Origin: Sandaracinaceae bacterium
GTDB lineage: Bacteria > Myxococcota_A > Polyangia > Polyangiales > Sandaracinaceae
Reading direction: 5' to 3'
DNA length: 64,000 nucleotides
Assembly (NCBI GenBank): GCA_019637095.1
Contig: JAHBWG010000027.1
Location: 1-64,000, forward strand
The position numbers and the translations under genes were made by a program. Positions 15,839-20,572 of the stretch are shown piece after piece. Below the pieces are notes generated by a model that saw nothing but the letters and a program-made list of their open reading frames with translations, was not told the origin of the DNA and did not search any database. Each line of letters begins with the position of its first letter. Within the stretch, counting starts at the first letter, position 1.

Positions 15839-17485
<1,647 letters not shown>

Positions 17486-17529: not shown

Positions 17530-18852
17530 TCACAGGATGCGAAGGCGGCGCTTGCCCTCCGCGGCGTCGAAGTGGCCGGGGCTCCTCGGGGTCAGCGCCA
17601 TCAGCTCCGCGAGCGGGACGCCGAGCACCGACGGAGCCTCGGGCGCGGGCCCGAGCGGCTCGAGCCGCGTCTCGAAGCGGCCGTGGTCGAAGGGCTCGCC
17701 GGGCGCCGCCTCGACCTTCACGAGCACCTCGCGCAGGCCCTCCTTCTCGTAGGCGAGCTGGCGGTGGATGCAGTACGGGTTGTTGCCCCCGCGGCCCATC
17801 AGCACCTGCGCCGTCCACGTGCAACCCGCCTTGCAGATGTCGGCGTAGTAGCAGCTCGCGCAGTAACCCCAGAGATCGGCGCGCGTGCGCTGCGCGACGT
17901 GCGTGAGCTCGGGCGCGGCGGACACGACGTCGGCGAGCGCGTCGGCGGGGAAGTGACCGCCGGTGTAGCCGTCGGACGGGAGCGACGGACAGCCCTTGAT
18001 CTTGCCGTCCGCCTCGACGCCGATGCACGCGCTGCCCGCGCCGCAGCCCGCCCAGTGCGTGCCCTTCTTGCCCCCGTAGCGCAGCACCTCCTCGTAGGGG
18101 CCGAAGTAGCCGATGTTGTTGCCGGGGAACGCCGCGATCCCGCGCGGAGTCAGCTTCTCTTGCTTGATCCAGGCGAGCAGCGGGAAGAGCTCCAGCAGAT
18201 CGTAGGGCTGGAGCAAGAGCTCGGGCCGGTCCGCCGCGCGCCCCATGGGCACGGTGAGCTGGAGCTGCCAGGCCTTGCTCCCGAGCTCGTGGAGCAGGTC
18301 CGCGAGCGCGACGAGCTCGGGCATCGAGAGGCGGTTGATCTGCGTGTTGGTCGCGAGCCGCATCGGGCTCGCCGCGATCCGCTCGGCGGACTCGACCGCG
18401 GCGCGCCACGAGCCGCGCGCGCCGCGCAAGAGGTCGTGCGTGCGCTCGAGCCCGTCGATCGAGACGCTGATCGTCGAGACGCCCGCGTCGACGGCGCGCG
18501 CGACGCGCTCCGCGTCGAAGCCGCGGCCGCCGGTCGTGATCCCGACGCGCATTCCGCGCTCCACGATGGCCGCCGCGATCACGTCCCAGTCCTCGCGCAG
18601 GTACGCCTCGCCGCCGATGAGCGTGACCTCGCGGACGCCGAGCTCGTCGAGCTGGCGCACGACGTCGAGGCACTCCTCGGTGCTCAGCTCGTCGGGCCGC
18701 GCCTTGCCCGCGCGCGAGCCGCAGTGCCGGCAGCCGAGATCGCAGCGCAGGGTGATCTCCCAGACGCAGTACGTGATCCCGTCGCGGACCGCGCCGCGCG
18801 AGAGCTCGGAGGGGCGCTCGTCGGCCGCGCCGACCGGAGGGCGCGCGCTCAC
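17530..18852 (-). CDS. radical SAM enzyme with SPASM domain
   Basis: A 440-residue radical SAM enzyme. The 4Fe-4S cluster binding CxxxCxxC is CDLGCRHC (Cys37, Cys41, Cys44), followed by the SAM-binding GGEAYL block (about 82). The C-terminal half has a SPASM-like Cys array ([34 protein letters not shown], then NPYC), which would bind two auxiliary clusters. SPASM enzymes most often modify ribosomal peptides or make quinone cofactors. GTG start overlaps the TGA of the upstream zinc-ribbon protein (GTGA), making that protein the obvious candidate substrate or partner. The exact subfamily is not identified. Confidence 0.9.
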
Positions 18853-19427
18853 TCGAGCGGGTCGCCGCCGGGGCGGCGCATCGGGGCGAGGCCGTAGCGC
18901 GGGCTCGGGGTCATGTCGGGCGAGGGGCGCGGCGCCCAGCGGTCGCCCGGCGGGACGCCGTAGGCGGGGACGGCGATGACCCCGGGGTCGCGCGGCGGGG
19001 CCGGCCGCGGGCGCGGGCGTGGCCTCGTCGCGATGGGCTCGGAGGGCGCGTCGTCGAGCACCGGCTCGGGCACGATCGGCGCCGGCTCCGGGATCGGCGC
19101 CGGGCTCGCCTCGACGCGCTCCTCGGGCGCGAGCGGCTGCATCGGCGGCGGCGGCGGCGCCGTGACCTCGACCGCTGGCGGCGCGGCCGTGGGCGCGGGG
19201 GCCGGCTCCGCGCAGCCGAGCGCGGAGAACGCGGCGAGCCCGGCGGCGAGGAGCCCGCCGCGGCCGACCGCGACGATCGTCGCGCGCGCGTCGGCGCGCG
19301 GGATGCCGAGCTGGTTCGCGCCGCAGAAGGGGCAGACGGTGAGGCTCGGTCGCTCGGCCGCCGCGATGTGCGCGCGGCAGTCATGGCAGCGGGTGAGGCC
19401 GTGTCGAGAACGGATCGGCTGGGTCAT
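18849..19427 (-). CDS. zinc-ribbon, membrane-anchored Pro-rich protein; candidate radical SAM partner
   Basis: A 192-residue protein of unusual build. Residues 14-36 carry two CxxC pairs (CHDC, CPFC), a cytosolic zinc ribbon. Residues 50-72 are hydrophobic and end in ALGC, a TM segment or lipobox-like anchor. Residues 73-150 are Pro/Glu/Ala-rich, then Arg-Pro. The tail holds two related blocks, PAYGVPPGD (154-162) and RYGLAP...PGGD (177-189). ATG 19427 is preferred over GTG 19475. Its stop overlaps the start of the radical SAM gene. I infer that the C-terminal tail may be a modified (RiPP-like) segment; no direct evidence of modification exists. Confidence 0.75.
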
Positions 19428-19534
19428 CGAGGAACGCTCCAGGTGCGAGACGAGCGTACTACCCGCGCGCTTCACCGCGGATTGGATTCACGCGGGTGGC
19501 CCGCGCGCGCGCGGTGCTCTACCGTGGCGCTCCG

Positions 19535-20572
19535 ATGAGCCGCGACTCCGAGCCCGTTCGAATCGGCGCGCGCCCCGAGTGGACGCTCGTGCGCACCGAC
19601 GACGTGTCGGCGCTCCTGCCGATCGCGGACCTCCTGATGGCCGCCGCGTGGGCGGACGGCAACCTCGACCCGCGCGAGCGGGACAAGGCGCTCGAGCTCT
19701 TGTGCCAGCTCGCCGGCTGCGAGTGGAACGACATGCCGCCCGCGCTCGTCGTGCGCGTCGCCGACTTCGATCCGGCGCGCTTCGACATGGCGAGCACCGC
19801 GAAGGCGTTCGAGGGGATGACGCCGCGCGAGCGGCGCCGCCTCGTCGCGATGGTGCGCGAGATCTGCGACGCGAACGGCGCGTTCGACATCGAGGAGGAC
19901 CGCTTCGTGATGGCGCTCGTCCTCACGCTCGCGCTCACCGAACAGGACGTGGGCGATCTCGTGTTCCGCGTCGCGCCGGGCCTGAACGGGCCGCTCAAGC
20001 GCGCGTTCGACGTGCTCTTCGCGGGGACGTTCCTCGCGACTTGCTGGCCGCTGCTCGTCGCGATCGGGCTCGCGGTGAGGGCGACCTCGAAGGGGCCAGC
20101 CCTGTTCGAGCAGCGCCGCTACGGGCGCGGCGGCGAGGAGATCGGCGTCTACAAGTTCCGCACGATGCGCGTGGCCGAGGACGGCCCGACGGTGACGCAG
20201 GCGACCAAGGACGACCCGCGCATCACGCCGATCGGGCGCTTCTTGCGCCGCACCTCGCTCGACGAGCTGCCGCAGTTCGTCAACGTGCTGCGCGGCGACA
20301 TGAGCGTCGTCGGCCCGCGCCCGCACGCCGTCGCGCACAACCGCCACTATCGGACGCAGATCGTCGAGTACATGCTGCGCCACAAGGTCAAGCCGGGGAT
20401 CACCGGCTGGGCCCAGGTCAACGGCTGGCGCGGCGTGACGGAGACGCTCGACAAGATGGTCGGCCGCGTCGAGCACGACCTCGCGTACATGCGCGACTGG
20501 ACGCTCTGGCTCGACCTGAAGATCGTCTGGCTCACGATCTTCGGCCGCCGCGTGCGGCAGAACGCGTACTGA
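19535..20572 (+). CDS. TerB-like domain fused to polyprenyl-phosphate sugar-1-phosphate transferase
   Basis: A 345-residue fusion. Residues about 20-145 are an acidic helical TerB-like domain (AAWADGNLDPRERDKALELL and CDANGAFDIEED are its repeated acidic motifs). Residues about 158-345 are a complete bacterial sugar transferase catalytic domain (PF02397 type): LKRAFDVL with the membrane re-entrant helix, VYKFRTM, GRFLRRTSLDELPQ, VNVLRGDMSVVGPRP and KPGITGWAQVNG. This enzyme class loads the first sugar-1-phosphate on undecaprenyl phosphate for capsule or exopolysaccharide. The usual four-TM plus CoA-binding N-terminus is absent. ATG 19535 chosen; the upstream GTG adds only basic residues. Confidence 0.88.
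   Translation: MSRDSEPVRIGARPEWTLVRTDDVSALLPIADLLMAAAWADGNLDPRERDKALELLCQLAGCEWNDMPPALVVRVADFDPARFDMASTAKAFEGMTPRERRRLVAMVREICDANGAFDIEEDRFVMALVLTLALTEQDVGDLVFRVAPGLNGPLKRAFDVLFAGTFLATCWPLLVAIGLAVRATSKGPALFEQRRYGRGGEEIGVYKFRTMRVAEDGPTVTQATKDDPRITPIGRFLRRTSLDELPQFVNVLRGDMSVVGPRPHAVAHNRHYRTQIVEYMLRHKVKPGITGWAQVNGWRGVTETLDKMVGRVEHDLAYMRDWTLWLDLKIVWLTIFGRRVRQNAY

Follow-up and report, generated by a model that had tools for sequence, protein, structure and literature searches.

The window, a stretch of 64,000 nucleotides from a Sandaracinaceae bacterium, contained two overlapping genes that we consider likely to form a RiPP-like system. Its PlpX-like radical SAM/SPASM enzyme would modify a lipoprotein that is exported, lipidated and ketoamide-bearing. 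The pairing of the genes, the tail motifs, their conservation in the family, the co-occurrence of the partners, the lipobox pattern and the kinship of the enzyme were observed. Sequence comparison strongly supported the small protein as the candidate precursor of this enzyme.

Gene pair and enzyme family

The enzyme gene (17530–18852, minus strand) had a GTG start and encoded a splicease-like protein of 440 amino acids. The second gene (18849–19427, minus strand) encoded 192 amino acids from an ATG, and its ORF and comparison with its family marked it as a putative precursor lipoprotein. The two ORFs shared bases 18849–18852, which read GTGA on the minus strand, exactly as the original prediction had described for a radical SAM/SPASM enzyme and a small protein. 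The radical SAM 4Fe-4S motif CDLGCRHC (residues 37–44; 18721–18744, minus strand) provided the CxxxCxxC cysteines C37, C41, and C44, and the SPASM region (residues 270–361; 17770–18045, minus strand) contained seven cysteines (C270, C288, C331, C334, C340, C344, and C361). All of them were invariant in 21 homologues. The Pfam model Radical_SAM matched the enzyme with an E-value of 5e-22. The AlphaFold2 model had a mean pLDDT of 83, and its best Foldseek matches were SkfB, PqqE, SuiB, and anSME, which fits a SPASM RiPP maturase.

Two NCBIfam models were far ahead of the rest: TIGR04103 (nif11-class peptide radical SAM maturase 3), which we take to be the same family as IPR026482, with 471 bits against a cut-off of 725, and TIGR03913 (GDL motif peptide-associated maturase), with 427 bits against 591.75. 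TIGR04133 (radical SAM enzyme with lipoprotein) was third with 158 bits against a cut-off of 425, and no match to TIGR04134 was found in the NCBIfam search. The enzyme lay below the curated cut-off of every splicease-related NCBIfam model, and neither partner appears, judged by cut-offs, to belong to a curated family. The closest enzyme families appear to be the Nif11-class maturase 3 family (the PlpX-type spliceases) and the GDL/DUF1843 family. PlpX, a member of IPR026482, works with its partner PlpY to excise tyramine at Xaa-Tyr-Gly (PMC11002830).

The TIGR04103 family was represented in the comparison by a Nostoc plasmid enzyme (C057), standing in for PlpX itself. It passed the model (853 bits against the cut-off of 725) and shared 50.5% identity with the window enzyme. 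Upstream of it there was a Nif11-leader precursor with the C-terminal end GSIALYGLPPELF (ALYGLPPELF), and a 71-aa frame followed the enzyme at the position expected of a PlpY-like partner. This Nostoc partner was the only PlpY-like RRE protein found by a single-sequence search of the loci, which a diverged or distant partner could escape, and in the window the gene pair adjoined its neighbours with no extra frame in between.

Ribbon, anchor and tail motif of the small protein

The small protein, read along the minus strand, comprised a CxxC-CxxC zinc ribbon (19323–19388, with the halves CHDC at 19377–19388 and CPFC at 19323–19334), a signal-peptide-like stretch (19212–19265) ending in ALGC (19212–19223) with the lipobox-like cysteine C72, a poorly conserved Pro-rich stalk (18978–19211), and two putative target motifs, PAYGVPP (Tyr156; 18948–18968) and PRYGLAP (Tyr178; 18882–18902). 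The ribbon, ALGC and the Pro-rich region had all been predicted and were all present. The ribbon, a proposed leader or docking module, was supported by the family alignment and was the only part that AlphaFold2 predicted with confidence; its matches in Pfam and NCBIfam were weak and of the generic zinc-ribbon kind, and PHROGs gave no match. The protein carried this ribbon in place of a Nif11 or nitrile-hydratase-like leader, for which NCBIfam and Pfam gave no family match. The tail was 32% Pro, and the only two tyrosines of the protein each lay inside a YG motif.

Homologous loci were gathered by scanning genome contigs with the enzyme alone. Among the 80 loci obtained, 60 had a ribbon protein with YG tail motifs adjoining the enzyme (relaxed ribbon pattern). 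When small proteins were picked by a lipobox-like cysteine downstream of a CxxC-CxxC ribbon, with the tail motif not used, 67 proteins were obtained, and YG was present after the cysteine in 66 of them. In these 67 tails, 163 of 191 tyrosines preceded glycine, whereas 2000 shuffles gave a mean of 33 and at most 53. Only 9.8% of the tyrosines did so in the remaining long frames at these loci. Since the tail motif recurred in dozens of homologues, it was not due to chance. The family consensus was P-[LAE]-Y-G-[AGVIL]-P-P: P or A at position −2, L, A, E, or V at −1, then YG, one of A/G/V/I/L, P (82%), and P (68%). The proteins contained one to five copies, mostly two to four, with variable linkers rich in Asp, Gly or Pro between them. 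Beyond the ribbon and the anchor, the motif was the conserved part of the family and the linker was not conserved, which agreed with the suggestion that conservation should lie in the tail. Of the two similar tail blocks described in the original prediction, the two copies stood, with the repeat unit xYG(V/L)(P/A)P in the window protein; the longer blocks with PPGD and PGGD were not conserved, and the unit in the family was xYGxPP.

Two variants of this layout were observed. In one sub-group with ACYG[ALQG] (L009 1073–1444, plus strand, and the ribbon proteins of L150, L155, and L159), YG directly followed the lipobox cysteine, and Asp-rich DCDG repeats sometimes came after it. Xaa would here be the lipidated cysteine itself, the lipidation being predicted. 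The ribbon protein of L165 (533–934, plus strand; contig C68 of the same genome) had the reversed order, with the motif ahead of the membrane anchor: APKYGGPP followed the ribbon and came before a hydrophobic segment at the C-terminus.

The lipobox was assessed in 74 proteins with a ribbon plus YG, which were taken without requiring a lipobox. Ala or Gly preceded the first cysteine after the ribbon in 72 of the 74, and in 73 a positive charge lay ahead of the hydrophobic stretch. Few further cysteines followed. The features of a lipoprotein signal (charge, hydrophobic stretch, and a small residue then Cys) were therefore present as a family pattern. By this pattern the anchor is probably a type II (lipoprotein) signal peptide with a cytosolic N-terminal part of unusual length; the ribbon would in that case be lost on maturation. 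The hydrophobic stretch and the cysteine of the predicted anchor were found, but the plain transmembrane anchor was rejected in favour of a lipobox because the Ala/Gly-Cys pair is near-universal.

Xaa-Tyr-Gly is the sole feature common to the precursor types found near enzymes of this class, which are otherwise unrelated and comprise ribbon lipoproteins, DUF1843/GDL peptides, Nif11-like precursors and others. It was found in a DUF1843 peptide with PPYGVPI (Pfam E-value 4.5e-8), in a Myxococcaceae protein near the enzyme (PLYGVF and AMYGVV), in the Nif11 precursor near the Nostoc enzyme (ALYGLPP), in a Chelatococcus precursor (IIYGPPP) and, further away, in the CEYGTP of a TIGR04134 lipoprotein encoded next to a TIGR04133 enzyme in Bacteroidota. 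At L068 (4806–5910), and also at L070 and L073 (Mesorhizobium), the close enzyme adjoined small Nif11/NHLP-like proteins that had no ribbon and carried the motifs IYGVSVV or IIYGTTA. Some DUF1843 peptides beside GDL-type enzymes (L144 4156–4869 and L145 4290–4745) had YA or lacked Tyr-Gly, and these copies are possibly inactive or differently modified.

The natural sites of PlpXY are MYG and LYG, and tags such as PIRPLYGLPI, which is close to the family consensus, have been used with it (PMC10533398). Short tags of the type GPIRPLYGLPI are taken in foreign proteins, and some of the sites tried failed (PMC10533398); short motifs in a lipoprotein tail are thus plausible targets. The residue Xaa included Glu, Asp, and Arg in the small-protein family, and it was Met, Leu or an engineered Gly in the PlpXY sites quoted. 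By this likeness the tail motif appears to be the Xaa-Tyr-Gly target of PlpX-type spliceases, which the original prediction had missed.

Several points count against the splicease reading: the NCBIfam scores below the cut-offs, the failure of the single-sequence search to find a PlpY-like RRE partner outside the Nostoc locus, the wider range of Xaa, and the few close-enzyme loci at which no XYG substrate was recognized. Related SPASM enzymes, moreover, perform other chemistry on Tyr-containing motifs, and SPASM enzymes that make Tyr-containing crosslinks are known. The predicted fold is also that of SPASM RiPP maturases in general, and the enzyme lies below the TIGR04103 cut-off. A cyclophane, another Tyr crosslink or an epimerization at the same Tyr-Gly motifs would give a crosslinked or D-residue lipoprotein. 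We regarded this alternative as unlikely, because both the xYG(L/V/A/G)PP motif and the nearest families agree specifically with PlpX substrates; to our knowledge, moreover, the three-residue cyclophane motif usually differs from a Tyr followed by Gly, a small residue and Pro. Splicing by a PlpX-like enzyme was therefore preferred.

Distribution of the pair and position of the ribbon

Co-occurrence was analyzed in 78 Myxococcota genomes drawn evenly, with E-value thresholds of about 1e-138 (hits below it) for the close enzyme and 1e-5 for the ribbon-signal domain. The close enzyme was present in 28 genomes and the ribbon-signal domain in 20, all 20 within the 28 (Fisher 1.6e-12, with kinship between genomes uncorrected). 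The small-protein profile matched nothing in the 50 sampled genomes without the close enzyme. Homologues devoid of both enzyme and tail motifs were seen neither in these 50 genomes nor among the other copies in the source genome, which retained the motif. The conserved motif and the confinement of the small protein to enzyme-bearing genomes among the 78 supported its reading as a putative RiPP-like precursor. Of the genomes with the close enzyme and without a profile match, three more proved on direct reading to have YG lipoproteins or ribbon-YG proteins (L150; L154; L155 and L156). No recognizable XYG substrate was read near the close enzymes of L148, L149, and L152, and none was seen at five loci whose SPASM enzymes are more distant.

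The source genome possessed three close enzymes, in the window, at L008 (57%) and at L009 (50%), and about a dozen ribbon-YG proteins. One of the ribbon-YG genes was located in the window, one at L009 and two beside L008; the others stood alone. Given about a dozen such proteins against three close enzymes, several substrates would be served in trans, and some eleven further proteins of this type are probably also substrates of the window enzyme or its two paralogues. As to whether the small protein always lies beside the enzyme, it adjoined the enzyme, as at 60 of the 80 loci, or, like the solitary copies, lay in a genome possessing it. Solitary genes could also be taken to mean that an ordinary radical SAM enzyme and an unrelated small lipoprotein are neighbours by chance. 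That explanation has a negligible probability and was already refuted by the adjacency at these 60 loci and by the co-occurrence in 20 of 20 genomes.

A similar ribbon, also missed by the original prediction, is present on relatives of the enzyme itself. Among GDL-type relatives it was C-terminal on the enzymes of L094, L101, L102, and the plasmid loci L144 and L145, N-terminal on the Tropicibacter enzyme (L143), and a separate frame beside the enzyme of L072. The ribbon was on or beside the enzyme at 4 of 80 loci and 3 plasmid loci and on the substrate at 60 of 80; across the 60 substrate-ribbon loci and the enzyme-ribbon loci it was never on both partners. L087, L110, and L111 were rejected as enzyme-linked cases, the overlapping frame with the ribbon being the lipoprotein itself. 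When all frames of twelve loci were ranked by the substrate-ribbon profile, six enzyme-linked ribbons came out on top. The rows with the ribbon linked to the enzyme required two changes on the enzyme tree, and six of them fell in one clade. These patterns suggested that the ribbon may be a docking module able to sit on either partner, a reading that is only suggestive because ribbons are short and common.

The ribbons fused to GDL-type enzymes also allow the ribbon to be an enzyme-associated module. The small protein would then stay unmodified and act as a partner or membrane tether of the enzyme, with the ribbon docking and the YG motifs binding the enzyme or another protein. This role is improbable: the motif is repeated, with one to five copies set in variable linkers of each protein, and the source genome has about a dozen ribbon-YG proteins for three close enzymes, both of which fit substrates rather than tethers. 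The YG motif is also shared with Nif11 and DUF1843 precursors.

Proposed pathway and comparison with known systems

For the pair we infer the reaction itself, docking through the ribbon, the sequence of steps and the lipidation. The small protein would bind the enzyme in the cytosol, guided by its ribbon, and tyramine would be excised at each YG site before export. After export and lipidation on the lipobox cysteine, a cut by signal peptidase II at this cysteine would discard the ribbon and the signal. A lipid-anchored Pro-rich tail with two reactive ketoamides would thus be displayed outside the cytoplasm. Spliceotide products have been described as protease inhibitors (PMC11117315), and on this analogy our guess is that the displayed product may be one as well.

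PlpX-type spliceases (plp cluster of Pleurocapsa PCC 7319) belong to the same SPASM branch and act on Xaa-Tyr-Gly followed by Leu/Val-Pro. However, the pair in the window has no Nif11/nitrile-hydratase leader and no visible PlpY-like partner, and its substrate is a ribbon lipoprotein; it would work like a splicease, yet with a different leader, partner and location of the product. The GDL maturases (TIGR03913)/DUF1843 are close kin of the enzyme and their system also includes a zinc ribbon, and their precursors carry PPYGVPI or RPYG near the N-terminus. In contrast to the window pair, in which the ribbon is on the substrate, theirs is on the enzyme or in a separate small frame, and their substrates are small DUF1843 peptides, unlike the small protein here. 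A search of the ORFs with Pfam found no DUF1843 peptide beside the window enzyme and no DUF1843 match in the small protein. In Bacteroidota, TIGR04133/TIGR04134 likewise place a SPASM enzyme beside a putative lipoprotein, with CEYGTP close to the lipobox. This pair differs in its enzyme (30.6% identity), the absence of a ribbon, a single motif near the lipid anchor and another mature domain, and no description of its chemistry was found in the literature examined.

DAG-RiPPs are likewise proteins that have a lipoprotein signal and receive a RiPP-type modification before export, but from MNIO enzymes and with no ribbon leader, whereas the window enzyme is a radical SAM/SPASM protein (PMC12636315). 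These MNIO systems are a precedent for RiPP modification ahead of lipoprotein export, and their authors expect further RiPP-lipoproteins beyond MNIO (PMC12636315). The literature on spliceases with lipoproteins or myxobacteria yielded nothing relevant, and the survey of Scott et al. (Chem, 2022) may include such proteins.

The broader possibility, to which we give even odds, is that backbone-spliced lipoproteins occur throughout Myxococcota. The ribbon would sit on the substrate, the lipoprotein signal peptidase would serve as leader peptidase, a few enzymes would place surface ketoamides on as many as twelve dispersed lipoproteins in a genome, and one sub-group would use the lipidated cysteine as Xaa (ACYG[AL]P). 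If true, radical SAM backbone splicing would be a general modification of surface lipoproteins, beyond small secreted peptides, with many substrates per genome in a phylum of social and predatory bacteria. Splicing would be tied to the lipoprotein pathway, the leader-docking module could sit on enzyme or substrate, and natural surface proteins would bear ketoamide handles. Each site would then leave a testable mass signature of −135.08 Da (tyramine excision, −135.0757 Da).

Two neighbours flanked the pair in the window. A class I iron-sulfur fumarase gene (15839–17485, minus strand) started ~45 bases downstream of the enzyme gene on the same strand, and the two are possibly co-transcribed. The divergent neighbour (19496–20572, plus strand) encoded an unusual fusion, in which a TerB domain (PF05099, E-value 1.7e-7) lies N-terminal to a sugar-phosphate transferase (PF02397).
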